IMG/VR virus record: IMGVR_UViG_3300050821_009805
Span: 1 to 44,006 of that record
Strand: one strand, 5' to 3'
Source: a virus
Length of the DNA: 44,006 nt
The first letter of the stretch is position 1. Each line of letters opens with the position of its first letter. A model generated the notes under the pieces. The model worked only from the letters and a program-made list of their open reading frames with translations, made no database searches and had not been told where the DNA came from. A program made the translations under genes and the position numbers. Below, piece after piece: positions 5,529 through 35,668 of the stretch.

Positions 5529-5757
5529 CCGGTTCCTCCCGCGCCAAAACAAAGTGCGTCCGGCGACGATCGTAGACGCACGGTTCAGGCTTGAACGGCG
5601 CCGCAGAGCCGTGCATCACCACCCCCCAACCACCACCCCACTCGGCATTGGCAAAAGCCAGCAACTCCTCATCCTCACAATCCCCCTCGGCGCACACCTC
5701 CATCCACCGATCGCCCCAATGCGGGCGCACCACCTCGACCCGCCGCAGCGCGCTCAC
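5515..5757 (-). CDS. Hypothetical protein
   Basis: 80 residues from a GTG at 5757 that overlaps the preceding membrane-protein stop by GTGA. The N-terminal region starts VSALRRVEVVRPHWGDRW. Acidic and Trp/Gly-rich middle (DCEDEELLAFANAEWGGGW), ending in a CC pair. The longer frame upstream of the GTG overlaps the small membrane gene and is not preferred. Family not recognised. Confidence 0.6.
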   Translation of the reverse strand: MSALRRVEVVRPHWGDRWMEVCAEGDCEDEELLAFANAEWGGGWGVVMHGSAAPFKPEPCVYDRRRTHFVLAREEPDGCC

Positions 5758-5873
5758 TGCTCGATCATCCCGATCGCCGCAATCACCACCGCCGAGATCG
5801 CGCACATCGCCATCAAAAACACCGACAAACCACGCGAATAGCGAACCGGCACGTCAGGAGGAAGGTGAGGCAT
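5754..5873 (-). CDS. Single-span membrane mini-protein
   Basis: 39 residues: a polar head (MPHLPPDVPVRYSRG) and one membrane segment (LSVFLMAMCAISAVVIAAIG). The ATG at 5873 lies immediately after repeat array A. The array's final AAGG unit sits about ten bases upstream and may serve as the ribosome site. The stop overlaps the next GTG (GTGA). Its layout matches another mini-protein at 8310-8426. Confidence 0.65.
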   Translation of the reverse strand: MPHLPPDVPVRYSRGLSVFLMAMCAISAVVIAAIGMIEQ

Positions 5874-5885
5874 CAGTTTCAATTC

Positions 5886-5995
5886 CTTGCCTTGCCTTGC
5901 CAAGCCTTGCTCTACCAAGCCTAGCCGTACCGCGCCAAGACCAGCCCCGACGCGCCGTGCCTGGCCGAATCATGCCCAGACACACCCTGCCGTGT
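5886..5995. repeat. Degenerate pentamer array A (22 units)
   Basis: Twenty-two consecutive five-base units with consensus CNNGC on the plus strand (GCNNG on the transcribed strand) and no indels. Position 1 is C in 21 units, position 4 is G in 18, and position 5 is C in 17; positions 2-3 vary. It fills the gap between the TAA of the 5995-6525 gene and the ribosome site of the small membrane gene. Units such as cttgc and caagc are mutually complementary, so hairpins are possible. Coding in this region is not seen. Confidence 0.9.
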
Positions 5996-6525
5996 TAAAC
6001 CTTCTTCCCCCCGAATAACTCAAGCGTCCTCGCTATCGGCAACTGCCCCGTCATCTCCGTGTTCACCGCACCAGCAATGCGATCAACCGACCGCGGCTTG
6101 CCAATCACTTCCATCAACTTCAGCGCAGACACGGTGGCGTTGGCGCGCACCTTCTCGGCATCAGGCAGCGCATCCCAGTCGGCTACCGCCATCACCCGAT
6201 CAACCCCTCGGCGCGCCATGCGACGCATCCGTCCAAAGATGCCCAACCCGCTGTTGGTCAACTCAACGTCCGTCGCTCGCCGGATGCCAATGTTGTTCAG
6301 CGGGTCAGTCACAATCTTGTATTCGCGCAAGCAGATATGCCGAGCTGAATGTAGAATATGCCTCGCTTCAGCCTGCACATCCTGGCCAATCAGCTCATTC
6401 AGTTCTCGGTATCGGATCAACTCTCCAACCGACATTCGCTTGATGCGGTCGACCAGAACCGTCGTCTCAATCGCCCGAGAAAACGGATAGGACCGACCCT
6501 CAACAACCTGAGATCTCGTTTCCAT
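5995..6525 (-). CDS. Unknown protein flanked by pentamer arrays
   Basis: 176 residues from METRSQVVEGRSYPFSRAIE; the ATG at 6525 has ACGGAG upstream, and the longer open frame would translate array B. The protein looks soluble and mainly helical, with a basic central stretch (GRMRRMARRGVDRVM) that could bind nucleic acid. I recognise no catalytic motif. The gene is isolated from its neighbours by arrays A and B, unlike the overlapping genes elsewhere in the operon, and probably belongs with the 201-residue protein upstream. Confidence 0.82.
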   Translation of the reverse strand: METRSQVVEGRSYPFSRAIETTVLVDRIKRMSVGELIRYRELNELIGQDVQAEARHILHSARHICLREYKIVTDPLNNIGIRRATDVELTNSGLGIFGRMRRMARRGVDRVMAVADWDALPDAEKVRANATVSALKLMEVIGKPRSVDRIAGAVNTEMTGQLPIARTLELFGGKKV

Positions 6526-6544
6526 TGCTGTAACTCCGTAAAAC

Positions 6545-6644
6545 CTTGCCTTGCGTTGCCGGGACAAGCCAAACCTTGCCGAGCCACGCCGCGCACTACC
6601 GCGCGGAGCCACGCTAAGACGAGCGCTGCCCGGCCACGCCGCGT
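6545..6644. repeat. Degenerate pentamer array B (20 units)
   Basis: Twenty uninterrupted five-base units, consensus CNNGC on the plus strand. Position 1 is C in 15, position 4 is G in 18 and position 5 is C in 17. It begins at the TAA of the 6644-7249 gene and stops about 20 bases before the next start codon. The sequence at the gene end (TAACGCGGC on the minus strand) is nearly the same as at array A (TAACACGGC). Confidence 0.9.
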
Positions 6645-7249
6645 TAAGCCGCCTTCCCCAATTGCTCCTCAATCACAACAAACTCATTCACTTTAAACCG
6701 CCCGTAAAACCCCCGGTTTCTCGGCCTAAATCGCCCAATCCCAACAAACTGCCCAAACCGCTCAAGCACAAACTCAAACACAGTTGTTCCAGTCGCCGGC
6801 CACGTCTGCAACACCGTGTCATCAAAAATTATAAAGTTAAATTCAGCCTTCCAACCGTCCTGAATAACCGGAAAATACTTATGTACCCGCTTAGAACCTC
6901 CTGCGCGACCATCAGCAGGAACAAACAAGCGCTCGCAACTCACATCCTCGGCCTGAATCCCAAGCATCGCCGGCTCAAGAGCCATCACGCCAGCCTCGAA
7001 ATGCTTGGTGTACGTCGCCTTGCCCTTTCCGGGTATACCAAGCGACAGAAACTTAGCCGTCTCCGCCAAACCGTTTTTGAATGACATTGGCGGAATAAAA
7101 ACCTCCCCCTTCTGGTTTACATGAAGTCGGTTCCGCCACGTTCGCTTTTCATAATCCTCAAACCCTTCGCCCTGAAGTTTCTCAACTTCATAAGAACGAC
7201 CTTGCGAATACGGCGACACACCCTCTACAGAAGCGACAACTGTTTTCAT
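6644..7249 (-). CDS. Unknown protein with conserved-looking Gly/Arg C-terminus
   Basis: 201 residues, MKTVVASVEGVSPYSQGRSY onward; GAGGAG lies seven bases before the ATG at 7249. It seems mainly beta. Two stretches look like family signatures: IPPMSFKNGLAETAKFLS near residues 52-69, and FVGIGRFRPRNRGFYGRF near 168-185. The second resembles glycine/arginine loops of RNA-binding ferredoxin-like (RAMP-type) folds, but this is only an impression; no Cas neighbour exists. It is framed by pentamer arrays B and C, so a role in binding the repeats or their transcripts is a reasonable guess. Confidence 0.82.
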   Translation of the reverse strand: MKTVVASVEGVSPYSQGRSYEVEKLQGEGFEDYEKRTWRNRLHVNQKGEVFIPPMSFKNGLAETAKFLSLGIPGKGKATYTKHFEAGVMALEPAMLGIQAEDVSCERLFVPADGRAGGSKRVHKYFPVIQDGWKAEFNFIIFDDTVLQTWPATGTTVFEFVLERFGQFVGIGRFRPRNRGFYGRFKVNEFVVIEEQLGKAA

Positions 7250-7269
7250 CTATGAACTCCTCGTTAAAC

Positions 7270-7359
7270 CCTGCCTTGCGATGCCCTGCCGAACCAAGCC
7301 ATACCGAACTAAGCCCAGCCCTGCTACGCCATGCCCTACTAAACCGCGCCGAGAAAAAC
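7270..7359. repeat. Degenerate pentamer array C (18 units)
   Basis: Eighteen five-base units with the same CNNGC pattern. It is looser than arrays A and B: position 1 is C in 13, position 4 is G in 12 and A in the other six, position 5 is C in 17. It fills the gap between the stop of the secreted protein gene (7361) and the ribosome site of the 201-residue protein. Confidence 0.85.
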
Positions 7360-7360
7360 C

Positions 7361-7630
7361 TTACCGACTCACTCCACCATATCCCCCATACCCACGCCCA
7401 TAGTCCCGGCTCACACCACCCCCATCTCCATACGACGGAGCCGGCGTGTACCGATACTCCTGAACCGACGACCCAGGAGACACAAACACCCCACCACTCC
7501 CGTCCCGGTTGCTCCGGTACTCCGTCACGCTATGCCCCGGATCGATGATCACACCGTCCCTCAAACCCTGCGCATAGGCCGAAACCGCCCAAACCGCCGA
7601 AAACGCCAGCAATCCCAACAGCTTAACCAT
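7361..7630 (-). CDS. Small secreted Gly/Tyr-rich protein
   Basis: 89 residues with a clear signal peptide (MVKLLGLLAFSAVWAVSAYA, cleavage probably after AYA). The mature part has two similar units, DPGHSVTEYRSNRDGSG and SPGSSVQEYRYTP, followed by a Gly/Tyr/Arg-rich tail. It would be exported to the periplasm or beyond. The ATG at 7630 has GGAGGAGG a few bases upstream. Signal-peptide proteins of this kind are common in bacterial genomes and less so in phages; its role here is unknown. Confidence 0.75.
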   Translation of the reverse strand: MVKLLGLLAFSAVWAVSAYAQGLRDGVIIDPGHSVTEYRSNRDGSGGVFVSPGSSVQEYRYTPAPSYGDGGGVSRDYGRGYGGYGGVSR

Positions 7631-7655
7631 GTTTTCCTCCTCCGCAGCGACTCAC

Positions 7656-7669
7656 TATATATAGGGCGC
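7656..7669. repeat. TATATATAGGGCGC repeat, copy 1 with hairpin
   Basis: The 14 bases TATATATAGGGCGC recur exactly at 7896-7909, 240 bases away; both copies lie between consecutive minus-strand genes. At this copy, bases 7664-7679 form a 6-bp stem (GGGCGC/GCGCCC) closed by a four-base loop (GAGA on the minus strand). It may be a promoter/UTR element or processing hairpin. Confidence 0.6.
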
Positions 7670-7682
7670 TCTCGCGCCCCCC

Positions 7683-7874
7683 TCACTCCTCCACCAGCGC
7701 CGAGATGTCCCACGGTCGGTCCCGCAACGCTCGCGCCGGAAAGGGGACCCGGGCAGGGCGAGGCGCCTTCTCTTCCAACGGCAGCATGTCAGCCGCCAAC
7801 AACACCTCATCCATCCGGCGCCAGTGATCCAGCGCCAACCGACGCCAGTGATCCAGCGGCTTGATCTCAGCCAT
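7683..7874 (-). CDS. Hypothetical protein with a duplicated DHWRR motif
   Basis: 63 residues from MAEIKPLDHWRRLALDHWRR; the ATG at 7874 has GAGGAG about seven bases upstream, which decides it over the longer frame. The LDHWRR motif occurs twice in tandem. The remainder is Pro/Arg/Ala-rich. No family is recognised. Confidence 0.65.
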   Translation of the reverse strand: MAEIKPLDHWRRLALDHWRRMDEVLLAADMLPLEEKAPRPARVPFPARALRDRPWDISALVEE

Positions 7875-7895
7875 CACCCAACTCCTCATGCTGTT

Positions 7896-7909
7896 TATAT
7901 ATAGGGCGC
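7896..7909. repeat. TATATATAGGGCGC repeat, copy 2
   Basis: Second exact copy of the 14-base element, upstream of the 7683-7874 gene and downstream of the 7922-8104 gene. Here the GGCGCC palindrome remains but the perfect hairpin of copy 1 is lost. Confidence 0.55.
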
Positions 7910-7921
7910 CATGCGAGACGC

Positions 7922-8104
7922 TCATTCCGTCAGCCCCCCAACCATCCGACGCCGCTCCAACTCAACCGCTCCACGCGCCCCTAACTCCCGCTCAATCAAT
8001 AACCGCAACCACTCCCCAACACTCCGATGATCCTCCGCCGCCGCGTCAAACAATCGGCGCCGCAAATCCCCACTCAACCGCAAACTAAACGTGCCCTTCT
8101 CCAT
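7922..8104 (-). CDS. Ribbon-helix-helix-like DNA-binding protein
   Basis: 60 residues: MEKGTFSLRLSGDLRRRLFD then a helix-turn-helix pair (AAAEDHRSVGEWLRLLIERELG). A short basic strand followed by two helices is the Arc/CopG layout, which binds DNA as a dimer. The ATG at 8104 overlaps the upstream stop (TGATG). It may regulate this operon or the divergent control region; the target is not shown. Confidence 0.7.
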   Translation of the reverse strand: MEKGTFSLRLSGDLRRRLFDAAAEDHRSVGEWLRLLIERELGARGAVELERRRMVGGLTE

Positions 8105-8310
8105 CACAGACCCTCAAGCAACGCCCATGACGACGGCTCAAAACGATCCTTATCCCCACCCTCTCCCGGATACCGAACCCCACACGGGTCATACTCAGCC
8201 ACACAACCCCCATCCTTTGTCCATAATTCATAAATAGAACGATAAGGACTGTGAGCCTCACCACTGCCACGCGACGATATCACAAAGATCAACTCGACTA
8301 TCTTCGCCAT
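8104..8310 (-). CDS. Hypothetical protein
   Basis: 68 residues from MAKIVELIFVISSRGSGEAH. The ATG at 8310 overlaps the stop of the small membrane gene (TGATG), so the longer frame that starts at 8445 is not used. The hydrophobic start is short for a membrane span; the rest is polar with two Cys. Function unknown. Confidence 0.62.
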   Translation of the reverse strand: MAKIVELIFVISSRGSGEAHSPYRSIYELWTKDGGCVAEYDPCGVRYPGEGGDKDRFEPSSWALLEGL

Positions 8311-12276: not shown

Positions 12277-12542
12277 CGCCCACCGAGCTTCGCGCGACCT
12301 TGGCACAGCTGCGACTGCGCCAGGTCGCGCTCGCGCGTGAGCTTGGCGTGCATCGCGTGACGGTGGCGCGCTGGGTCGCCGGCAAGGTCGAGGTTCCGCG
12401 CCATGTCGCGGCGTGGCTCGCGCTATACGCGCGGTCGGCGGGCCCGCCCCCATCGCGCGAGGAACCGACTCGGCGGTTCCCGGTTGACGGTACGGTGGGG
12501 GTAATCAAGGTAAGCGATGCTCAAAGCAAAACCACTGCGTAA
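12273..12542 (+). CDS. HTH-type DNA-binding protein
   Basis: 89 residues from MTPTELRATLAQLRLRQVAL. QVALARELGVHRVTVARWVA near residues 17-36 is a classic helix-turn-helix, similar to XRE or homeodomain-like bacterial regulators. The tail is Pro/Arg-rich and unstructured. It is coupled to the previous gene, and its end overlaps the end of the convergent CoiA-like gene by 38 bases. Confidence 0.78.
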   Translation: MTPTELRATLAQLRLRQVALARELGVHRVTVARWVAGKVEVPRHVAAWLALYARSAGPPPSREEPTRRFPVDGTVGVIKVSDAQSKTTA

Positions 12543-13404
12543 CCCCCAATCTCTCAGCATCGGGATATCCCCAACTTCCCCACTTACCGCAAGTCCCGCA
12601 CCAGTGGTCGAGGCCAACGCGCTCTGGTTTAGGAATTTCCGCGTCACAAGTATTTTCTGATATAGGCTCAACATCATCATCTACTAACAACTCAATTCCA
12701 TGCATAGTATCGACAAAACAATATTTGATATTTTTAATCTGTGAAATAATCCTCGGAAACAAATCAACCCAACGCGCCGACTTATAATAATATCCATGAT
12801 GATAATCACCGTTATAATCATACCCACCTTCATAACACAACATATGCTCCCCCACCTCACAAAAAGCTAACCGATTATCCCCCTCAGCATAAAACCACAG
12901 ACCTTTATAGATTTTTGCAAGATACCTTTCAAACGGTCTTATTGAATACCTCGATACAGGTTTCCCCTCATCGTTACCATATCCCGGTTTAATAGTCGGC
13001 ACCCAAATATGTGAAATACCTTTTCGCCGATATCCTAAAATGCGTCTCTTAAGTTCATCTACATCAATCGGCGTATGCTGAATCTCGATAACCAGCATTT
13101 TCCCATTCGGCGCCCATATTGCTACATCGGCTCGCTGATCTCCGACAGGATATTCCAACTCAGCTCGCAACCCACGCTCGCGCGCCGCCTCACAAAACAG
13201 TTTCTTCGCCGTCAAATGTGCGACTGTCTCCCCCACCGAATACGCGCACACAGGCGATCCTGGCTTATGCGCAAAGTGTGCGATCTTTATCGAGCCAGCC
13301 TTTAAGATCACATCGGCTTGACAGCCGGGACACTTGAACGCCTGTCGGCGCTCTAATTGCCGATCTGCCTCGACGCGCTCGCCGTTCACCCACGCAATGA
13401 GCAT
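12505..13404 (-). CDS. CoiA-like nuclease
   Basis: 299 residues. A zinc-ribbon-like FKCPGC (residues 23-28) is followed by AHFAHKPGSP (42-51), the hallmark of CoiA/competence-type nucleases. Then comes a PD-(D/E)xK core: RADVAIW (91-97, Asp93) and VIEIQHTPID (105-114, Glu107/Gln109). The C-terminal half is Tyr/Trp-rich, with a second Cys pair near 270-273. CoiA family proteins act in DNA uptake or recombination; in a phage it may process branched DNA. The gene lies beside the iteron region and the primase-helicase. Confidence 0.82.
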   Translation of the reverse strand: MLIAWVNGERVEADRQLERRQAFKCPGCQADVILKAGSIKIAHFAHKPGSPVCAYSVGETVAHLTAKKLFCEAARERGLRAELEYPVGDQRADVAIWAPNGKMLVIEIQHTPIDVDELKRRILGYRRKGISHIWVPTIKPGYGNDEGKPVSRYSIRPFERYLAKIYKGLWFYAEGDNRLAFCEVGEHMLCYEGGYDYNGDYHHGYYYKSARWVDLFPRIISQIKNIKYCFVDTMHGIELLVDDDVEPISENTCDAEIPKPERVGLDHWCGTCGKWGSWGYPDAERLGVTQWFCFEHRLP

Positions 13405-13732: not shown

Positions 13733-16222
13733 CTAACATTCCTCAGGGACGTCATCCCCCCAATCGACAGGCAGCTTTGTCGCAACTTCAAACGCCAAAC
13801 GCGCCGTCGTTATATCTCCGAGGGCATAGCACATTTTGCTATACCCAAGGACCGCGCGTGCTTCACGATGGCCTGTGCCAGTATCGGTGAGATGTTCGCC
13901 GACGATCATTCCGCGTTTAGGGCGCGTCGGCTCATTTCCCATGCGGCGCATGAACCTTCCGAAATGAACTCTATTGAGCGGTCGGCGGTCGTGTTTGCTG
14001 GCGGCAAATTCCAGATAGGATGCGTAAAGCAACTCGGTCGAAACAACCTCGTCCCATTGGTGCAAATCCGCTTCCAATCCCAAACGCGAGCGATAGACAT
14101 ATTCGCGCTGCAAGACATCCAGCCACCATTCCTCAGCGGTCGGCAGCGACATGATGCGCTGATCGTTCAACCCGTCCGTTTGCGGGATGGCGCGCGGGTT
14201 GTAATCGCTCAGATCCATATCAAGCAGATCGCCTAGCATCGCTTCGTAGCCGCCGTTTTCCATCTCGCGGGTGATCGCAGCAAAATAGGCGTGGTCGTTC
14301 AGGTGTTCTTCGCTGAGGATCAAAACAAAGAAGCGCCGCGAGTCCAGTGACGCCGGCACCACCCAATCCTCGTTGGAGGCCATCATCAGGTGAATGAAGT
14401 TCCGCATTTGCACAGGCGCTTGGTATTTCGCCTCGATGGTCAGGTAGGGTTCGGTGATAAGCGACTTCAAAACGCCGACATGCTGCTTGTCGCCAGCCCA
14501 AAAGGCTTCGTCGGCAAACAAAAAAACCAAGTCGCGCAGATGGCCGTTAAACGACCCTATCAGGTGCTTGGCGGTCGATACGGTCATGCTGTGCTGGCCG
14601 AGTATGTGCATGAGCGCACGCGCTAACGTGCCTTTGCCCGCACCTTGCGGACCTTTCAGCACAACAGCGACTTCGCCTTGTAGCTCGGGGTGCTGGACGA
14701 GGCGCGCCATCCAGCCCATCAAGAAATTGTAATGCTCTTGGTTGCCTCGACAGATGACCTCGCCAATGTGCTCTTGCATGAGCCGCCATGACCCGGTGCT
14801 AGGCTTGACGGCGAACCCCTGCCAAAGGTTCAGGGTGGATGGCGGCAGTGGCCCCCCGCGTGGGTCGAAAACGATATCGTTGTAGGTCTTGCGTTCGGGA
14901 TGAGAGAGCCAGATATCGGCAAAGGTGCGAACGATGTCCTTGCCCTTCTTGTCCTTGCCGACGATTTTTGAGCGATTGAGCCACAGCCGCTTTAGGTCTT
15001 CAAAGGTTAGTCTCCGATAGCACCGTCTTCCGATGGTCTCGTCGACTGAGGGCTCGTAGACCAGCACCCGGCCTTCCTCGTTGACGACGAAATAGCGTTG
15101 GTTGAAGTGCTGGACGATCTCGACCACGGATTGACCGCTACCAGGCGCGCGGTCGGGTTGAGGTAAAGGAATGACGTTGTGATCTAATTGCTCGACTCTC
15201 TCCTCGCTTGATGCAGAGCGCAACTGAACAGCGCTATCACGCGTCCCGAACTTGGCTGCGGCGGAGCGCACCATTGCGCGAATAGCGGCTTCCTCGCGTT
15301 TCCAGTTCCACGCAACACCAGCATTGCCGGCAGCCGCCTCGGTCGCACTCAACACGGCATTAACGATCTCGTCCGCGTCGACACCTTGCGCGGCCAAGGA
15401 CGCCGTTACCGACAGCTGCGTGGCGTGGATGCCGCCTTCGCCCGCCGCCAGATACGACATGGCGGAGAGCCGGCTCTCGACATCGATGGGCGGCTTGAAC
15501 GACGATAGCCGAGCCATCGCCAGAAACGGGTCGTTTGCAGCCACGCCAGCTGGCGCCGCGGTCGAAACCAGCAATGGCCTTTGCACATCGAGCATCTCCA
15601 CGATGTCGCTAAACTCATAGCGCAGGGCGAAATCGGAGACCGGCAACAGGACAACCGGCTTCAGTTCTTCTGTTTTGCTGTGGTGGGTGCCGGGGAGGCG
15701 CATGACGCGGGCGATGTCGCAGCAAGTGGGGTCGCCTGCGAGGATGCCAGCGAGTTGCTTGAGCACGGCCACGATAGCGTCATCGTCCTGATCGCGGCTA
15801 TCTGATTCCAGGTTGACGTTGAGTGCTTCTCGCAACAACCAGTAGCAATGAATCCCGCCGCCACTATCGACGAGCAGTGATGGGCGAAGGGGCAGAGAGA
15901 GTGCGGCTGCAACGGCTTCCTCCTTGGAGAAATCGGTTTTGTAGCAATCGATATCACACCACAGCGCGGCCAGTTCGGCGCACTCGGCTCGGGTCCCGCC
16001 GGGGCGCCCCATGATCCTTGTGCAGCAGCCGAAGAACATGCCGCGCCCTGGCTGGTCCCAACGCTGGCATTCGTCGATGACGATTTGGGATTCGCGCGTT
16101 TTGCGTTGAGTGGGTCGCCCGCTCTTGTCGTTGGTAAAGGAGCGTAGTTCAACGTGTTGGGTGGTATTCTCGAAAAACTGCGCGAGGAAGGTTATTGTCG
16201 GGGAATAGTCGATGTCGGCCAC
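13733..16222 (-). CDS. Primase-helicase (RepB-like primase plus SF3/D5-type helicase)
   Basis: 829 residues from a GTG at 16222 with AAGGGAG upstream. The N-terminal part has a primase-polymerase-like site: WCDIDC (Asp90/Asp92) and SGGGIHCYW (120-128), as in RepB/archaeo-eukaryotic-type primases. The C-terminal part is a superfamily 3 helicase of the phage DUF5906/D5 type: Walker A GPQGAGKGT (524-532), Walker B LFADEA (568-573), sensor MMASNEDW (613-620) and an arginine-finger-like DSRRF (about 627-631). It would unwind and prime phage DNA. No DNA polymerase is visible in the window, so the host enzyme or a gene elsewhere is needed. Confidence 0.92.
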   Translation of the reverse strand: MADIDYSPTITFLAQFFENTTQHVELRSFTNDKSGRPTQRKTRESQIVIDECQRWDQPGRGMFFGCCTRIMGRPGGTRAECAELAALWCDIDCYKTDFSKEEAVAAALSLPLRPSLLVDSGGGIHCYWLLREALNVNLESDSRDQDDDAIVAVLKQLAGILAGDPTCCDIARVMRLPGTHHSKTEELKPVVLLPVSDFALRYEFSDIVEMLDVQRPLLVSTAAPAGVAANDPFLAMARLSSFKPPIDVESRLSAMSYLAAGEGGIHATQLSVTASLAAQGVDADEIVNAVLSATEAAAGNAGVAWNWKREEAAIRAMVRSAAAKFGTRDSAVQLRSASSEERVEQLDHNVIPLPQPDRAPGSGQSVVEIVQHFNQRYFVVNEEGRVLVYEPSVDETIGRRCYRRLTFEDLKRLWLNRSKIVGKDKKGKDIVRTFADIWLSHPERKTYNDIVFDPRGGPLPPSTLNLWQGFAVKPSTGSWRLMQEHIGEVICRGNQEHYNFLMGWMARLVQHPELQGEVAVVLKGPQGAGKGTLARALMHILGQHSMTVSTAKHLIGSFNGHLRDLVFLFADEAFWAGDKQHVGVLKSLITEPYLTIEAKYQAPVQMRNFIHLMMASNEDWVVPASLDSRRFFVLILSEEHLNDHAYFAAITREMENGGYEAMLGDLLDMDLSDYNPRAIPQTDGLNDQRIMSLPTAEEWWLDVLQREYVYRSRLGLEADLHQWDEVVSTELLYASYLEFAASKHDRRPLNRVHFGRFMRRMGNEPTRPKRGMIVGEHLTDTGTGHREARAVLGYSKMCYALGDITTARLAFEVATKLPVDWGDDVPEEC

Positions 16223-16248: not shown

Positions 16249-17595
16249 TTAAAGAAGCGTTCCGGTTGATTGGCGTTTGTTTCGGTTTTTTTGCGCCACT
16301 GAATGACCGCCAGCACCTTGGTAATAAGCTAAACGCGCCTCGATATCGGTGATGTATTCGGCTTCGCGTTCGATGAGGATGGCGTCAAAGCCTTCGGCGA
16401 GCGCCGCCACGCCGGCAGTGCCGCTGCCCGCGAATGGGTCTAACGTCAGTCCGCCCGGCGGCGTGACGAGGCGCATCAACCATCGGATCAGTGCGACCGG
16501 CTTGACAGTGGGATGCTTTGACCCCCAGCGGTCCTCGCTATCGGCTTTTGCTGAGAAAAAGAACCGCGCTGCAGAGCCGCTGTCGCCCCGAGCGAGCGCT
16601 GGCGCCTGCTCGCCAAAATCGCCATAAATACCGTTACTTTTCTTTGGAAGCTGCGGCCGGTCGTAGAGTTGTCCCGCGCTGTCGGGGAACGCCGCGAGCA
16701 CTTCGTCGCTGTCGTCATGCGCCACATTCGCCGGCCAGCGGCCAAGGTTTGGATTGTGACCGCCCTCGGAGCCGTCTTGACGGTATCCGCCTAACCCTTT
16801 TCCGTAGATGCTGTTCTCAGTCGTGGAAAGCGATCCCGGAACTCGCTTTAATGTCCCGATCCGGCACCCATCAATATTGATGGCTCCCGTGCCGTGCAGC
16901 AGCACATTCTCGGCGACCGTGCCGATCAGTGGCTTGCGCGCGAGGACGATCGGCTCGAAGGCCGACTTGAGCGCCGTGCCCCAACCAACCCATGCTGCTG
17001 CCGCCGCCGTCGTAGGTGCTGTTATCGCGTAATCAAGATATTCCGGTGCTTCCCGCTCAGACGCATTGATGCCGTCCCCCCTGCCACGTCCATGCCCATT
17101 TCTGATGTCGCGGCGCTTAATGTGCGTGACCACCGCCCGCTCTGCGCCGGCGGCTTTGTCGATTGCCTTGCTGACATCGTGCGATTTTGGGAAGCCAGTG
17201 CCGTACAGCCAGCAGAGCGTGTCGCGGATTTCAAATCCGGCATCCTCGATCGCGCACACCATGCGGTGATAGGTGCGCGTACCGCCAAAGGCAACGAGAT
17301 GCGCGCCGGGTTTGAGAACGCGATAGACTTCGGCCCAGAACGCAGGATCGTGAACGACTTCGCCCGTGTCCCATTTTTTGCCCATAAAGCCGCTGGACAA
17401 GCGCGCCATACCGTCAGCGCGCGCAGCGGCCCGGCGCTCGTTTGTCCCGGAGCCGTTGATCGAAGTCTTGCCGAAGCGTTTGACGATGGAGGTTAGGGAG
17501 TATGGCGGGTCGGTAATGCCCGAATCAATGCTGCTACTGTCAAGCGTCTTGATGACTTCGCGGCAGTCGCCGGGCAGCAATCGCACCGTGCTCAT
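16249..17595 (-). CDS. DNA N6-adenine or N4-cytosine methyltransferase
   Basis: 448 residues. Catalytic DPPY at 29-32 precedes the SAM-binding DPFAGSGT at 386-393, the beta-class order. KHPTVKPVALIRWLM just before it is the typical approach to motif I. The long middle (about 170-350) is the likely target-recognition region. It lies 26 bases upstream in order of the primase-helicase. No partner restriction enzyme is seen, so protection from host restriction or regulation of phage DNA is most likely. Confidence 0.92.
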   Translation of the reverse strand: MSTVRLLPGDCREVIKTLDSSSIDSGITDPPYSLTSIVKRFGKTSINGSGTNERRAAARADGMARLSSGFMGKKWDTGEVVHDPAFWAEVYRVLKPGAHLVAFGGTRTYHRMVCAIEDAGFEIRDTLCWLYGTGFPKSHDVSKAIDKAAGAERAVVTHIKRRDIRNGHGRGRGDGINASEREAPEYLDYAITAPTTAAAAAWVGWGTALKSAFEPIVLARKPLIGTVAENVLLHGTGAINIDGCRIGTLKRVPGSLSTTENSIYGKGLGGYRQDGSEGGHNPNLGRWPANVAHDDSDEVLAAFPDSAGQLYDRPQLPKKSNGIYGDFGEQAPALARGDSGSAARFFFSAKADSEDRWGSKHPTVKPVALIRWLMRLVTPPGGLTLDPFAGSGTAGVAALAEGFDAILIEREAEYITDIEARLAYYQGAGGHSVAQKNRNKRQSTGTLL

Positions 17596-21808: not shown

Positions 21809-22800
21809 AATTAATTCTGGCCCTCGCGTTCATACTTATCGCCACGACTGCCAATGCCGCCACCTCGATCCCGGTTAGCGGCGATCACAGCGGCGTTACC
21901 GATACCACCGCCATCACCAACGCCTGCAAAAAGGGACAAATACCCAGCCTCAACGGCGGGGTTTACTACGTCAGCCAGATCACCAATTGCCGGGTGATCC
22001 GGGGCGATGGCGGGCTGCCAGCATATTTTTGGTATGAAGGGGAAACTGATGTCACCACAGTTATCGGAGTCGGTGGAGGACGCGGCGTTCTTACGTGCCC
22101 TGCCGGAACAGCCTGTCGCTACACAGGTTTTACCGTTAATCCTGGCCCCGGACAGGCTTGCGTCGTCATGGATGGCGTACACGGTTTGCAGCTTGACAGC
22201 TTCAACTGCATTGACCCCGCAGCTCAGGGAGGTGACTGCATTGATGCTCGTGCCCTCTCAGGCAATTACAACCAACTACTCAAAGTGATTGGCGGGGTGT
22301 TTATCCACTGTGGCGGCTGGGGGTTGAACGCGAGCGAGGGGGCCGGCCTCAACGACAGCTTCGTGATTGGGGCAAACTTCTCCAACAATCAACTCGGCAA
22401 CATCAACGTCGGCGCAGGCTTCGGCAACGTCTGGGCTAACAACAAGATTGAAGACACTTATGCCTCTAACGGTATGGTTTTCAGCGGCCCACAAGGCACC
22501 AGCGGCGACAGCGTGATCGTCGGCAACGTCTTCGACCAGAACGGCATCGACATGCAGTTTACCAGTCCTGATTGGTACGGTGTGATCACGGGCAACATCT
22601 CCTGCACAAGCCCGAGCGCTCAGGGGATCATGTTCAGCATTGAAGGCTCGAACTTCATCGCCGGTGGGATCAACACCGCATGCGGGCCCACCTACCGGGC
22701 GCTTGCCGGCTTTGCGCCGTTTCTTGACTTTGCTGATCCCGATCCAAAATACTTTGATGCGACCAGCCAGACTATCGTCGGGCCGAGCGTTCACAATTAA
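21805..22800 (+). CDS. Secreted right-handed beta-helix (pectate-lyase-like) protein
   Basis: 331 residues with a signal peptide (MKLILALAFILIATTANAAT). The body has Asn/Gly-rich repeating strands such as GANFSNNQLGNINVGAGF and NVWANNKIEDTYASNGMVF, GNVFDQNGIDMQF, typical of pectate-lyase-fold tailspikes and polysaccharide lyases. Cys pairs suggest disulfides in the periplasm or outside the cell. It is the only large gene of this plus-strand operon. It may degrade or mask a surface polysaccharide. Its end overlaps the convergent nuclease gene by four bases. Confidence 0.78.
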   Translation: MKLILALAFILIATTANAATSIPVSGDHSGVTDTTAITNACKKGQIPSLNGGVYYVSQITNCRVIRGDGGLPAYFWYEGETDVTTVIGVGGGRGVLTCPAGTACRYTGFTVNPGPGQACVVMDGVHGLQLDSFNCIDPAAQGGDCIDARALSGNYNQLLKVIGGVFIHCGGWGLNASEGAGLNDSFVIGANFSNNQLGNINVGAGFGNVWANNKIEDTYASNGMVFSGPQGTSGDSVIVGNVFDQNGIDMQFTSPDWYGVITGNISCTSPSAQGIMFSIEGSNFIAGGINTACGPTYRALAGFAPFLDFADPDPKYFDATSQTIVGPSVHN

Positions 22801-23252
22801 TGCTGCGCGAGCGCCTTAGCGCGCAGCACGGCTCGCTCTGCCGGCGGAAGCTTGGCCTCGATTGTCGGCACGCCCCACACGTCTAAACGTTCACGCACGT
22901 CGTCAATGCTGCGACAGACTGTGACGGAGCAACCGGCTGCGACCAGCCATTGATGCACGGCAATTTGCTCAGAGCTGAGCGAGCCTTTGCCGGCTTTCAA
23001 CTCGATCCACAGGCATTTGCCGCGATTGATAATGAGGATATCGGGCACCCCGGCCTGCATACCCATGCCTTTGAGGATCGCGCCGCGCAGCTTGCCACCC
23101 CCGCCGTGCCCGATCGCTGTAAAAAACGTAGGGGCAGTTAAAACGCGCGCCAGATAGGTAGCAATGGCGATCTGGAGGGATTGCTCGGGATGGGCGCGAG
23201 GCTTGCTGCTCGAGGCTCGCTTGCGCGACATACGCGCAGGGAGAACGAACAT
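22797..23252 (-). CDS. VRR-NUC family nuclease
   Basis: 151 residues. GHGGGGKLRGAILKGMGMQA, GVPDILI (Asp71), WIELKAGKG (Glu84, Lys86) and SSEQIAVHQWL (Gln96) are the VRR-NUC signature, a PD-(D/E)xK nuclease module found in phage DNA metabolism and in FAN1. It may act on branched or flapped DNA. The ATG at 23252 overlaps the upstream stop (TAATG). Confidence 0.88.
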   Translation of the reverse strand: MFVLPARMSRKRASSSKPRAHPEQSLQIAIATYLARVLTAPTFFTAIGHGGGGKLRGAILKGMGMQAGVPDILIINRGKCLWIELKAGKGSLSSEQIAVHQWLVAAGCSVTVCRSIDDVRERLDVWGVPTIEAKLPPAERAVLRAKALAQH

Positions 23253-24503: not shown

Positions 24504-24881
24504 TTACGTCAGCGGTGTTGGCGCGGTAGCCCTGACCTTGCTGATCAGGCCGTTGAGATAGGCGACCGCCCCCGGTTGTAGCGCGAGGTTTGCCACAAGT
24601 TCTTCCGAGGCGCACCCCGCGGTGATCCAGATCGCATAGGGTCCGGCGATTGGTGCTAGTGCCATCGCCTGGTTGCACAATCCCGCTACCACTGCTTGGT
24701 TATTCTGTGCGTTCTGCACCTGTGCCGGGGTGATCGGGCCAGCGCAAGCGCCGAGAACCAGAGCAGCGGCGACAAGAGATGTGCGGGCCTGCCTGCCAAA
24801 CCAACCCAGCCAGTGGCAGCCTATGTATGCTGGGCATGGGCCTCCAACTCTACCCGCTCGGGAGGCGTACGTTCTAATCAT
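24504..24881 (-). CDS. Lipoprotein
   Basis: 125 residues from an ATG at 24881 with GAGGGA upstream, overlapping the endolysin end by eight bases. After a polar N-terminal stretch a hydrophobic segment ends in the lipobox LVLGAC, giving lipidation at that Cys. The mature part starts AGPITPAQVQNAQNNQAVVA, a helical Gln/Asn-rich region. Placed directly after the endolysin, it could be an outer-membrane spanin subunit (o-spanin), but it is larger than usual. The unusually long pre-lipobox part suggests a later start may be used. Confidence 0.7.
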   Translation of the reverse strand: MIRTYASRAGRVGGPCPAYIGCHWLGWFGRQARTSLVAAALVLGACAGPITPAQVQNAQNNQAVVAGLCNQAMALAPIAGPYAIWITAGCASEELVANLALQPGAVAYLNGLISKVRATAPTPLT

Positions 24882-26079
24882 GGCTTCCCTCATACGCAGC
24901 GACGATCGCCGCCAAGGTTTTGGGCCCCCATTTTCCATCGACCACGATGTCGGCGCCGTCCACCTTGAGCCAATACTGGAGCGTTTCCAGCGCAGGCATG
25001 GCGCCGATGTCGGACATATCGGATACGGCGGGGACGACCGGTGGTGATGGCGTAGGTGTCACGGGCGCTGGCGTGGCGGGTTGAGCAACCGTGGCCAGTG
25101 CATCGAGGTAGAGCCACTTGGCCCGGTTGGCCGTCCACACGTCGACATAGTGCTGATCAGGTCTCCCCTGCGCCGCGGCGCCATATCCCTCGTTATACCC
25201 AGCCGACCATTCGGCCAGTGTCGGCGGGCGCCCGAAATGCGTCTGTAGGTAGTTCCATCCCTGCGAGGCGTACTTAAGCCCGTAAAGGATACCGACCTTC
25301 GGGTCGTACATCTGCGCTGGATCGCCGACAAGTCCGAGTCCTGCCGCAGTGCTGTCGAGCACCTGCATCAAACCATACGAGGCAACGCCACTTGGCTCCT
25401 GCCGATGTGCATTTGGATCGAAGTTTGATTCCGTCTCGCAGAACGCCATGAATGAGCTGCGCTGAAACCAGTTGCCGAATTGCGCCGCGTTGACGACATC
25501 GAATGCCGCCAAGGCCGCGCTTTCTCCGTCTGTTAATCCAGCGTGACTGACGACCGGAATAGCGGCAGGCGGTGCGGGAAGTGGAGCGACGGTCGGCGTG
25601 GCCGTTGCGTCAGGATACCATGTCCCAGCGAATAGGCCGGTCTGCTGATCGACCGTGCAGCCTTGGATGTGGTCGCTGTCGCGGAAAGAGTGCGGCTGGT
25701 CAGGCAGCCCCCAATCGTAACCGCTAATGACGGCCCGGTCGGGTGTGGAAACCTGAGCTGCCAACCCGACACAGAACGTCCAGTCGCCGTCCCAGGACGC
25801 CTGACCATTAACCAGCTTGGCAAAGTCACATGCCAACCCGTAATGATGGACGCCCACCTTGCTGAGCTGCGTCGCACCCTGTTGGAAAAGCTGCGTCTGT
25901 CTCTCCGAGCTGCGGTACGTCTCGGTGACAATCAACTCGATGCCGAGCGCTTTGCTCGCCGCCATAAAGGCGGCGACTTGGCCCCGAAACGTCGGCTCCA
26001 GCAAAGCCATGTCCCGGATAGGCTCAGCATTGTGAAACCGGGAATCGACCTGTAAGACATCGGTATAGAAATTGCCCAT
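24874..26079 (-). CDS. Endolysin with peptidase, transglycosylase and C-terminal domain
   Basis: 401 residues. The N-terminal domain resembles L-Ala-D-Glu or VanY-like M15 peptidases: TETYRSSERQTQLFQQG (about 52-68) and GVHHYGLACDFA (75-86), with DSDHIQG near 135. A Pro-rich linker is followed by an SLT lytic transglycosylase: FCETESNFDPNAH (Glu catalytic, about 212-224), ASYGLMQVLD and EWSAGYNEGYGA. The C-terminus (about 350-400) looks like a peptidoglycan-binding unit. Two cell-wall activities in one phage lysin is less usual. It could alternatively be virion-associated, but its position beside holin-like genes favours lysis. Confidence 0.85.
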   Translation of the reverse strand: MGNFYTDVLQVDSRFHNAEPIRDMALLEPTFRGQVAAFMAASKALGIELIVTETYRSSERQTQLFQQGATQLSKVGVHHYGLACDFAKLVNGQASWDGDWTFCVGLAAQVSTPDRAVISGYDWGLPDQPHSFRDSDHIQGCTVDQQTGLFAGTWYPDATATPTVAPLPAPPAAIPVVSHAGLTDGESAALAAFDVVNAAQFGNWFQRSSFMAFCETESNFDPNAHRQEPSGVASYGLMQVLDSTAAGLGLVGDPAQMYDPKVGILYGLKYASQGWNYLQTHFGRPPTLAEWSAGYNEGYGAAAQGRPDQHYVDVWTANRAKWLYLDALATVAQPATPAPVTPTPSPPVVPAVSDMSDIGAMPALETLQYWLKVDGADIVVDGKWGPKTLAAIVAAYEGSHD

Positions 26080-31665: not shown

Positions 31666-33470
31666 TGGATGCCCAGTGCTGAATGTTGGGGTGATTGATA
31701 GCCTACCGCTGCGCCGATGGCCGGGATGGTTCGCTGAATGCCGGAGGAAACAGCTTCTCGGCTGCGATCAAAAGCGGACGGCTGCGTCTGCCGAAGTTTT
31801 TCCGCCGCCTCAAACATCTGTTTCACCGCTCTATTAGGACTGAACATATGTTCTCTCATGCTCCTGAAAATTTGGAACCCCGCTGCCGACGCTAGCGCGC
31901 TAGGATCAAAATGCACCAGAGCATGAATCAGCTGATCACCAGAGGCGATATCCAAGAGCGTGCTTCCAAGGCCACCCTTTACATTTCGCCCTTGAACAAT
32001 AGACCTGTGGACGACATCCTTTTCGATGGAGCGGACCTGACCGTAAGCGTTCTTGAGCGCTTGATATCCCGGACCTGTGGCTTTTTCGATAGTCGTGTCC
32101 AGCGCCTCACGCATTTTATTGGCCACCATCGCATCGATAGCCGCCGATCGTGATGCGTAATTTGGCGTAGCCTGCCGATAGAACGCCTGTAGTTTCCCGT
32201 TGAAATTTTTAATGGCTTCCTGCGCCTCTAACGGAGTATACGCTACTTTCGCAGCGTAGTTATCTGCCAATTGATTTGCGGCCCTGACGACATCACTATC
32301 GCTTTCAGCTAAAGTAGACTTCCCAAGTTTTCGCAATTCCTTGACAATAGGATTAAGATCAACCCACAGGCCTTTGGTTTTTTTTAGAGCCTCTTGCTCG
32401 ATTGCGGACATACGATCAAGGTTAGCTCTGGCGGCGTTTAATTCTTTTCTGGCCGCAGCCTGCCCCTCTATCGAGTTCATGCCGGACAATCGCATTTCAG
32501 CATCTCTAACTGCCAGACTTGCATCCATCGCTTTTGATTGAGCCTGCGCCAAGTCTCTCTGGAATGCCTGTGGAACAGGTGCGCCTACATTGGTTGCGGC
32601 AGACGCCGCTGTAGCTTTAGCGTTGTATTCCTCAAATATTTTCCGCTTTGTCTGATCTATGGACTCCGCGAACTGTGCAAGGCTCTGTGGAGCCTGTCCG
32701 ACGATTTTGTCGGGTCTAGTCGGATCAGTAAGCTCCAGAGAACCTTTTCTATCGAGAATGTGGTCTAATGCGCCTCGGAAACCGGCATAAGCATCATTCG
32801 CCTTGGTGACAGTCCCCTTCCCAGCCACGCCTGGCTTGATGTATTGCGTATAAACGTGCTTGATAAAATTTTCGGCAGCTTCCGGCGTCCCGAGAGAAAG
32901 GGCATGAGATAGCGCCCCAAACGCTCCACCACCTGCTCCGCCTTCAAGCCCGCCCCTGACAAGCTGTCCCGCCTTGCCTTTCGCGAAATCGCCTGAAGTC
33001 TCGGGGGTCGCGGCACCACTGATTGCGCCGCCCATCGCGCCTTGGACAATGCCAGACCCAACCCGGCCCATCAGGCTAGCGCCACCCATCTCGGGCGCGA
33101 TGATCGACAAGGGTGCGGTCAGAGCAACATCACCGGCAATCCCGCCGACTGTGCGGCCCCAGCCTTTGTTGTAACCCTCTTTCTCAAGCTGCTTCTCGCG
33201 CTGCTGCAACTGAACATCAACGGCCTTGGCCGCTTCCGGCTGGACCTGATTGGCCTTTTCTTGCTCAGCCGTGTACGCAATCGGTGGCGGATCGAGCGTC
33301 GCGTGTGCGCCAATCTGTCCAAGACCGTAAATCTTATCCATCAAGCCCGCGCCAAAGCCTTGGGCGAACGATGGCGGTTGATCTAACGGAACATTATCCG
33401 GCAATCGCTGTGCACTGCCGGCAGACGGCGCGTCGAGCTTCACATCGTCAGGGAGTTTTACGGCTGCCAT
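31662..33470 (-). CDS. Internal (ejection) virion protein
   Basis: 602 residues. After a polar start come Gly/Ala-rich amphipathic segments (GRTVGGIAGDVALTAPLSII, GMGGAISGAATPE) and then a long coiled-coil/helical body (about 230-520) rich in Ala, Gln and Lys. This composition, no catalytic motif, and its place between a lysozyme-like ejection protein and small helper genes match internal core proteins that form the channel across the envelope during DNA entry. Confidence 0.72.
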   Translation of the reverse strand: MAAVKLPDDVKLDAPSAGSAQRLPDNVPLDQPPSFAQGFGAGLMDKIYGLGQIGAHATLDPPPIAYTAEQEKANQVQPEAAKAVDVQLQQREKQLEKEGYNKGWGRTVGGIAGDVALTAPLSIIAPEMGGASLMGRVGSGIVQGAMGGAISGAATPETSGDFAKGKAGQLVRGGLEGGAGGGAFGALSHALSLGTPEAAENFIKHVYTQYIKPGVAGKGTVTKANDAYAGFRGALDHILDRKGSLELTDPTRPDKIVGQAPQSLAQFAESIDQTKRKIFEEYNAKATAASAATNVGAPVPQAFQRDLAQAQSKAMDASLAVRDAEMRLSGMNSIEGQAAARKELNAARANLDRMSAIEQEALKKTKGLWVDLNPIVKELRKLGKSTLAESDSDVVRAANQLADNYAAKVAYTPLEAQEAIKNFNGKLQAFYRQATPNYASRSAAIDAMVANKMREALDTTIEKATGPGYQALKNAYGQVRSIEKDVVHRSIVQGRNVKGGLGSTLLDIASGDQLIHALVHFDPSALASAAGFQIFRSMREHMFSPNRAVKQMFEAAEKLRQTQPSAFDRSREAVSSGIQRTIPAIGAAVGYQSPQHSALGIQ

Positions 33471-35668
33471 TTAGAGCCATCCGGCGCCTGGTAAACGTCT
33501 TTGCCTTGATATGTCCCGATCTTCTTTGAGCCGGCAGGGATGCCGGGGGGCAATGCTTCGGTTGGCCCTCCTCCACCCTTGCCCGCTTTATCCGTAGTTT
33601 CCAGCGCTTCCTTCGTATGGTCAAACAGCTTCTCGCGAAACGTTCCTTGCCGCTTTTCATCCTGACCAGCGTACTGAAATTCCAAACCGCGCATCTGACC
33701 TAACATGAGGCGCCGCGCTGTCTGGATCACACCCTTGAGCTGTTCAGGTGAACTGGACCGATCAAAGTCTGCTTGCAACTCAAGACGTTCCGCTCCCGTA
33801 CCCGCGTTGTTGCCTAAAACAGCTTTAACAAGCTCGTCGGCTACAATCTTTTTAGCGACATCGAAGTCCACCGGACCTTCATAGCCAAATTCTACGAGAA
33901 CGCGGTTCTTAAGGGCATTAAGCTTTGGCGTATCCTTATTCTGCAAGGCATCGGCTAACTGCTGCAAAACGTCGGTATGATCGATCGCCACATTAAGCGA
34001 GCGTATCGTATTTCCCTGCGCGCCTGACCCAAACGCCTGTTCCATCGCCCCCAATGCTCGGATGCGAGCAGCAGCCATAGCCACCGCTTCAAAGCCGGCC
34101 TCAGGATGCTCCTCCATAAATTTCTGCATGGCGATGGCAGGCGCTGAGCGCGGCTGGCTTGTTCCCCTTAATCTGACACTGCCGCCCGGAGGAACCTCCA
34201 GCGGTTCATTGGTACCGGCCATGAACCATGAGCCATCGGAAGATTGATAAGCCGCTACATTTGTTCTAGTAACCTTACCGTCTGGTCCAACAATATCGAT
34301 GTTCTTCGCTGCGGAGGGTTTAGAGAACGTGCCGGCTGCTTGGCGCTTGGCCTCTCCCTCATGCTGCAAGTGCTCTGCGGGTGTAACCGGGCGACCCTCT
34401 TTTTGTTCTAACTCCTTATCTTTCTGCTCCACAGAGGCGGCTATCTCTTTCTCTTCGCGGGCTTTCTTGGCATTGTCGTGTTGCGCCTCAGTAATCTGCG
34501 TCGTTAATTGCTGAACCCGCAGACTTTTCTCGATGTTTTCGACGCTCTTCGGATCGAGATGCTGCTGAAGCTGGTACGCAGTCGAAAGCGTCCCAAGCTC
34601 CGTGACCTTTTGATCGTAACTCTTGCGGGCGTCCTCCACGATGTCGCGCGCTTCACCATGCAGCAACTCGATCAGCTTCAAGCCGTTGTCGTTGTGGTCC
34701 TTCCAGCGCTTGTAGGCGATGTCATAGGCCCGCACGTCGGCCTGGTTCGCTGCCTGCAACATCTCGCCAGCCGCGTTGATCGCAGCCGTATGGTTCTTTC
34801 CAAAGAACCCGCCGAGCATCGCCAGCCCGATGGCCGCGCCCGCCCACTGGTTCCAATTCTCACGCATGTCCTGGGGCGGATGCTCGCTGCTCAACTCCCA
34901 CTTGGCCATCGCCGCCCGTGCGACCTTGCGCAAGTCCTTCCCTTCTGCGAGCGCGTCGTCATACTCCTTGCTGCGCTTCTGAATGTCCTGCTGCCAGGTT
35001 TGCAAGTATGCGCTGGCACCCGCGTTAAAGGAACCAAGCGCGTTAGATCGCAGGTTTGTCTCCTCGCTTCCCGGCGAGCCGGCGGGACGCTCAAACGAAC
35101 TGGTGAATACCCCGTATCCCTCCTGTTCGCTGATATTCGGGTTCATCAACTCCGCTTTGTGCTTTGCGGCAATCGCATCGCCCCCGTTAAATTCTGAAAT
35201 GGAAAACTTCGCATCCGCCCGCGCAATGGCCACGGGGTCGTTCATATCGACTTTGTTATTTTTTAGATAGTTTGCAAACTTTACGGCTCGCTCACCGTGA
35301 TGCTGGGTAAGACCGATAGAAGTAGGATTGCCGTATTCGTCATAATCACCTGTTGCATAAACATTCCAACCGGATTCCACACCAACGCGACGAGACGCTC
35401 CTTCAACCGCAGCCGGCGGATATCCCGCCGCGAGCCATTCGTCGCGCCACGCATCTTTGATCGGATTTGATTGACCGCCAATATCCTTAGGCATAGCGGC
35501 GATCTGCTCACCCGGGATTGAGTTGGGCAGAACCGCTGGATGACTAGAATTATTCGGCAATGGCAATGGCTGATCGCGGCTGATGTCCGAAGGCTGGAAC
35601 GTCGCCCCGCTCGGCAGGGTAACGATAGACCCACCAGGCGGCGCTGGCTCGGCGACAAGTCCGTTCAT
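33458..35668 (-). CDS. Internal virion protein with lysozyme-like domain
   Basis: 736 residues. The first 200 residues include a lysozyme/transglycosylase-like region: WLAAGYPPAAVEGASRRVGV then ESGWNVYATGDYDEYGNPTS and IGLTQHHGERA (catalytic Glu-Ser-Gly-Trp near residue 93). This is followed by a long coiled-coil body (about 330-480) and a Gly-rich end. It resembles podovirus ejection proteins that cut a local hole in peptidoglycan at infection. Coupled with its neighbours by short overlaps. Confidence 0.78.
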   Translation of the reverse strand: MNGLVAEPAPPGGSIVTLPSGATFQPSDISRDQPLPLPNNSSHPAVLPNSIPGEQIAAMPKDIGGQSNPIKDAWRDEWLAAGYPPAAVEGASRRVGVESGWNVYATGDYDEYGNPTSIGLTQHHGERAVKFANYLKNNKVDMNDPVAIARADAKFSISEFNGGDAIAAKHKAELMNPNISEQEGYGVFTSSFERPAGSPGSEETNLRSNALGSFNAGASAYLQTWQQDIQKRSKEYDDALAEGKDLRKVARAAMAKWELSSEHPPQDMRENWNQWAGAAIGLAMLGGFFGKNHTAAINAAGEMLQAANQADVRAYDIAYKRWKDHNDNGLKLIELLHGEARDIVEDARKSYDQKVTELGTLSTAYQLQQHLDPKSVENIEKSLRVQQLTTQITEAQHDNAKKAREEKEIAASVEQKDKELEQKEGRPVTPAEHLQHEGEAKRQAAGTFSKPSAAKNIDIVGPDGKVTRTNVAAYQSSDGSWFMAGTNEPLEVPPGGSVRLRGTSQPRSAPAIAMQKFMEEHPEAGFEAVAMAAARIRALGAMEQAFGSGAQGNTIRSLNVAIDHTDVLQQLADALQNKDTPKLNALKNRVLVEFGYEGPVDFDVAKKIVADELVKAVLGNNAGTGAERLELQADFDRSSSPEQLKGVIQTARRLMLGQMRGLEFQYAGQDEKRQGTFREKLFDHTKEALETTDKAGKGGGGPTEALPPGIPAGSKKIGTYQGKDVYQAPDGSKWQP

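Follow-up and report, generated by a model that had tools for sequence, protein, structure and literature searches.

Five-base repeat arrays in a phage operon as predicted guides of a VIPR system

What is the function of three arrays of a degenerate five-base unit that frame two adjacent genes in the virus record IMGVR_UViG_3300050821_009805? The record was analysed over a length of 44,006 bases, below called the window. On the minus strand, which is the gene strand, an 89-residue gene is followed by array C (7266-7360), a 201-residue gene (6644-7249), array B (6541-6645), a 176-residue gene (5995-6525), array A (5887-5996) and a 39-codon membrane-like reading frame. All 62 units read on this strand as (GGY)NN. 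Each array keeps one unbroken 5-base phase without an indel, as the initial annotation of this DNA had claimed; its unit counts of 22, 20 and 18 are correct for array A and one too low for arrays B and C, which have 21 and 19 units. Every array begins at the stop codon of the preceding gene and ends approximately 25 bases short of the next start codon, in agreement with the earlier description of the arrays as filling the space up to the ribosome site.

The information content of unit positions 1 to 5 (62 units, minus strand) is 0.96, 1.27, 1.23, 0.27 and 0.04 bits. The exact triplet GGY is present in 43 of the 62 units, the third position is a pyrimidine in all of them, and the NN letters are hypervariable. 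With GC required every 5 bases, the Kadane scores of the arrays are 14.75, 11.3 and 9.75, whereas 100 shuffled versions of the window never exceeded 7.0. In a motif-free scan for period 5 they score 60, 54 and 46, and the rest of the 44 kb never exceeds 31; the arrays are thus confined to the surroundings of the two-gene cassette, as had been noted. Shifting RNA hairpins, also proposed there, are not supported: the folding of the sense RNAs has z-scores of -1.8, -0.06 and -0.04, a stability not clearly above that of shuffled sequences. An Rfam search of the window gave no match.

A fixed triplet followed by two free bases, with a start codon within about 25 bases of each array end, looks like the binding sites of TRAP (trp RNA-binding attenuation protein). 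These sites are (G/U)AG triplets with 2-nt spacers, also of period 5, and the spacers carry no information. The arrays might then be leaders in which multimers of the 201-residue protein bind the triplets near ribosome sites and autoregulate translation, the NN letters again being free of information.

Twenty close relatives of this protein were found in IMG/VR, and a family profile retrieved 129 loci, of which 80 non-redundant ones were kept; five relatives reside in bacterial genome contigs. When compared with PDB, the family profile matched a single chain, 36pp_D, "SUSP1 Vipr protein" (E 1.2e-13, 54 bits). The profile built from the 80 relatives scored 58.7 bits against the SUSP1 gene product, the identity between the window protein and that of SUSP1 being low. 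The family corresponds to phrog_4652, annotated as function unknown, and contains the conserved loop GxFIGIGRFRPRNNGxYGRF. Structure prediction, which the initial annotation had suggested for this protein, produced a RAMP fold: the AlphaFold2 model (pLDDT 88.5) has a single RRM core and the G-rich loop, Foldseek matched it to type VII Cas7 and Csm3 (5e-8), and VIA-align matched it to Csm3 at Z 12.5 across 165 residues. By profile and modelled fold, the 201-residue protein is a Vipr homologue with the Cas7/Csm3 RAMP fold, predicted to bind guide RNA. It is unrelated to TRAP, which argues against the leader model above. No CRISPR array, that is, long identical repeats with unique spacers, was detected by a tandem-repeat scan of the window and a repeat scan of positions 5700-8200; a PADLOC scan of seven proteins, six from the cassette region plus the one encoded at 12505-13404, revealed no other cas genes, and the cassette-region genes matched no defence or Cas family.

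A Vipr homologue is also encoded at positions 22429-23046 of OR003939.1 (Phage DSL-LC04), where it is labelled "helix-turn-helix transcriptional regulator" and has GGT/GGC arrays immediately upstream. This named phage harbours an unrecognised VIPR system.

The 176-residue protein belongs to a family that adjoins vipr in 83 of 93 loci, at a median distance of about 100 bases downstream. The family profile scores 26.9 bits against ALH47068, taken to be SUSP1 vap1 from its position beside vipr in the SUSP1 record. By this homology, the 176-residue protein is the vipr-accessory protein Vap, and the window has the vap gene next to vipr. Its AlphaFold2 model (pLDDT 92.9) combines long helices with an N-terminal half that resembles a winged helix, and a structural search of PDB yielded only weak matches to wHTH regulators. 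As modelled, Vap probably binds DNA.

The initial annotation knew of no named system of this kind; one is now named. A literature search with VIPR terms returned PMC13142463 alone, a preprint of April 2026 on the Viral Interference Programmable Repeat. In this text, VIPR consists of the Vipr protein and vrRNAs with 9-16 YNNGG repeats and a 3' tail, and reads DNA through the NN dinucleotides, one target base being skipped per unit (PMC13142463). The preprint describes repression as programmable, reports phage defence, and places natural targets in both satellites and prophages; for SUSP1 it covers the expression of the guides, their assembly into RNPs, the binding of DNA and the resulting repression. 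It distinguishes seven VIPR types, the anchor being GGY "or a related consensus", and ascribes the structured 3' tail to no clades other than those of SUSP1 and P. fulva, the array architecture being different in other types (PMC13142463).

Because the 201-residue protein is a Vipr homologue and the 176-residue protein is Vap, the locus very probably is a phage VIPR system, its arrays being vrRNA guides of a Vipr-coated RNA that silences rival genes with the help of Vap. The homology to vap1 suggests a placement in or near type II. The arrays would be transcribed along with the operon as guide RNAs and cut out of the operon transcript. Vipr subunits would oligomerise along the RNA, presumably one per 5-nt unit, each holding the GGY triplet; the earlier idea that one of the two proteins binds the arrays is thus very probably right, as predicted from Vipr homology. 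The exposed NN dinucleotides would pair with double-stranded DNA as NNxNNx..., the skipped base usually being the codon wobble position. The two middle bases, earlier described merely as varying, would be the information and not slack. The bound complex would then block transcription of competing phage or satellite genes, Vap helping. By analogy with SUSP1, the window phage may be expected to express its guides, assemble them with Vipr into RNPs, bind DNA and repress genes.

Arrays defined by the motif-free period-5 score occur within 2 kb of vipr at 76 of the 80 non-redundant loci, giving 249 arrays in the 332 kb around vipr, with a median length of 16 units. The 1.45 Mb of other viral DNA used as a control produced six matches, all of them purine runs, AT runs or compositional stretches. 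The initial annotation had named three observations that would count against its idea of a purpose-built RNA platform tied to the two genes: relatives of the genes lacking arrays, arrays scattered over phage DNA, or arrays encoding a conserved peptide. The first two are contradicted by these counts, the third is excluded as a 5-base period cannot give a fixed peptide, and the idea itself is upheld. The same data bear on a neutral satellite, born by slippage and devoid of function. Two or three identical terminal units are what fresh slippage would leave, and closely related loci (L005-L008) have arrays differing by entire units. However, the triplet is kept and the spacer is free at 76 of 80 loci of widely differing GC content, the co-occurrence with vipr is strict, no such array exists in the control DNA, and some arrays decode to matches in vipr genes (below). 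The probability of a functionless repeat is negligible.

In several relatives, upstream of vipr (L005, L008, L063, L067) or downstream of it (L012/L079), several arrays alternate with copies of a hairpin-like module approximately 70-80 bases long, for example CGCAAGGTTACCTCTCA...GAGAGGCAACCACTCC...GGAGTGGTTGAAAC. This arrangement resembles tandem guide-plus-tail units, and close relatives differ by whole units.

The 3' ends of the family arrays are near-constant: counted from the end, NN=AA in 59% of the second units, 49% of the third and 35% of the fourth. The 5' ends show no such constancy. The window arrays follow the same pattern: the last three units of array A are GGCAA, the final units of array B are near-constant with NN=AA, and array C ends nearly so (AA, AG). 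None of them has a structured 3' tail like that of SUSP1. The near-constant AA units may be a handle that replaces the structured tail of SUSP1. One could also suggest that the arrays are dual, vrRNA guides that act at the same time as translational switches, the 3' AAGG of the last units lying next to three ribosome sites, those of vipr, of vap and of the gene that follows. Start codons directly downstream of all three window arrays and the near-constant AA-GG units throughout the family would fit such a switch. Many arrays of the relatives, however, precede no gene, and the constant 3' units are equally explicable as a Vipr or processing handle, so we regard the dual role as rather unlikely. 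Clusters of 5-9 arrays, not each one preceding a gene, also speak against TRAP-like leaders.

We decoded 280 arrays with a 1-nt skip against the codon profile of the vipr family, 560 shuffles serving as the null. Five arrays exceeded every shuffle (maximum 20.3) on conserved vipr codons, with scores of 42.7, 27.7, 25.8, 24.5 and 21.3. The segments of vipr read in this way are RPRNNGYYGRF (array of locus L051, CGC anchor), NRGYYGRF (L023, GGC), EAAKYL (L097, GGC, antisense), QI(x)GKGKSAYTK (L101, CGC) and FIGIGR (L095, AGC). The array of L051 agrees with vipr of another relative, L011, at 24 of 24 bases over 12 consecutive units, with the skipped base at codon position 3. When the loci of the relatives were scanned with skips of 0, 1 and 2, only skip 1 stood out with a clear excess.

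A further match links an array with the GTT anchor (L093) to a 1301-residue virion-like gene of its own phage. Its score is 21.4, the null maximum being 15.7, and it appears at skip 1 only; the guide reads R-K-E-F-L-[KN]-N-[IM]-P-G-G-T-...-I-N-K against RKEFLRNLPGGTSSINK of the gene. This guide may be aimed at a competitor's version of the shared gene, the phage's own copy escaping by mismatches. Most arrays of the relatives had no match in the contig of their own phage beyond that of permutations. Among the arrays of relatives residing in genome contigs, one with the CTC anchor had no match in the genome that carries it or in related ones, and one with the GAC anchor had a single match with three mismatches, which was judged to be due to chance. 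The relatives allow the published one-base-skip rule to be tested from outside: it picks out vipr genes, and in one case a virion-like gene, for arrays with CGC, AGC and GTT anchors as well as with GGC. Gene matches far above shuffles are contrary to spacers without information; given these decoded targets and the RAMP homology, a TRAP-like regulator was dropped as the main reading and is considered very improbable.

The anchors themselves are diverse. Each phage has one characteristic triplet, GGC (39), CGC (12), GAC (10), CTC (5), GTT (3), GTC (3), GGT (3), AGT (2), AGC (1) or CAC (1); RGY was also counted among the anchors of the relatives besides GGY. At least 25 changes of the triplet are required on the Vipr tree. 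Tyrosine replaces phenylalanine at position 126 in 14 of 18 Viprs whose anchor starts with C versus none of 58 with initial G, and position 106 is glutamate in all 57 cases with G as the second anchor base. For F126Y and the first base C, two to three of four independent pairs differ, all in the same direction, too few for significance. It is conceivable, though we would stop somewhat short of calling it probable, that in vap1-linked Viprs the anchor is a second, protein-coded specificity, switched many times, with F126Y and E106 as candidate determinants. VIPRs would then be orthogonal, guides being read by their own Vipr only, and the targets would be the vipr genes of rivals and rival versions of the phage's own virion genes. 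The table of anchors against Vipr residues makes anchor recognition by Vipr directly testable at residues 106 and 126.

For arrays A, B and C, no confident target was found by exact 8-unit patterns in IMG/VR, by tblastn with peptides read from the NN letters, or in the own genome. The patterns came from two segments of A, one of B and two of C. Matches to A, B and the first C segment were rejected, their extension being at chance level only. For the second C segment, 30 of 38 guide bases agree, in codon register, with a family of UvrD-like helicases, but the best extension has a P of only about 0.05 and an out-of-frame match scored equally. The NN peptides had no tblastn match in phages. In the own genome, array B matches positions 34923-34973 (plus strand) within the 736-residue gene (33458-35668, minus strand) at 24 of 34 guide bases, the skip falling at codon position 3; the guide reads KKFETALAETK(D/E)LRTA against KEYDDALAEGKDLRKVA of the gene. 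Permutations of unit order reached 24 in 0 of 400 and 7 of 1500 cases, and P ranges from 0.003 to 0.07 depending on the number of units used. The segment is a weak candidate for a relative of the array B target. The 736-residue protein has a phage tail lysozyme-like domain (Pfam, 1.1e-5, short of the curated cut-off), and its homologues are few and partial, insufficient to take the match further. The matches of array B to the tail-lysozyme-like gene and of array C to UvrD-like helicases are suggestive, as leads only.

The motif GCGCCCTATATATA has exactly two copies in the window (7656-7669 and 7896-7909, minus strand) versus 0.11 expected. Each copy precedes a small gene, both genes belonging to the same operon; the copy at 7656-7669 is separated by about 25 bases from the downstream start codon of the gene preceding array C. 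It is possibly a phage promoter or operator of the cassette. A 24-base unit (CCAACCGACGCCAGTGATCCAGCG) forms two tandem copies at 7811-7858 within a small gene. The record also encodes a DNA methyltransferase (16249-17595), a primase (13733-16222), an endolysin (24874-26079) and the tail-lysozyme-like virion protein mentioned above, and contains no tRNA genes. A 299-residue protein (12505-13404, minus strand) weakly matches the PADLOC model of druantia DruB (E 1.5e-5, 74 residues of the 552-position model).

Since April 2026 the system as such has been known. Only the diversity of Vipr anchors and the tail-less operon layout may be new here, part of which the preprint supplement (fig. S17) may list. 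The closest known system is the type II VIPR of SUSP1 (PDB 36pp; KT454805). Both are phage-encoded, with a Vipr RAMP protein and an accessory gene of the vap1 family; in each, the gaps flanking these two genes contain tandem GGY/NN arrays that read on the gene strand. The 1-nt skip rule fits the relatives of the window system. The window arrays differ in that they are embedded in a gene operon, lack the structured tail and run to the next ribosome site. They end in near-constant NN=AA units, and the wider family uses many anchors besides GGY. Their length of 19-22 units, terminal constant ones included, exceeds the reported 9-16, a range that does not define the mechanism.

Another parallel is offered by the backbones of class 1 CRISPR-Cas systems (Csm3 and Cmr4 among the Cas7 proteins, and type VII Cas7), with which the window protein shares the RAMP fold and the glycine-rich loop at Z up to 12.5. 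In both cases an RNA-guided oligomer would pair with its target in a periodically interrupted manner, whereas the guide information in the window is split into dinucleotides. VIPR is a months-old RNA-guided system with such a split code, argued to predate CRISPR, and the window would provide an independent phage example, with tail-less arrays inside an operon.
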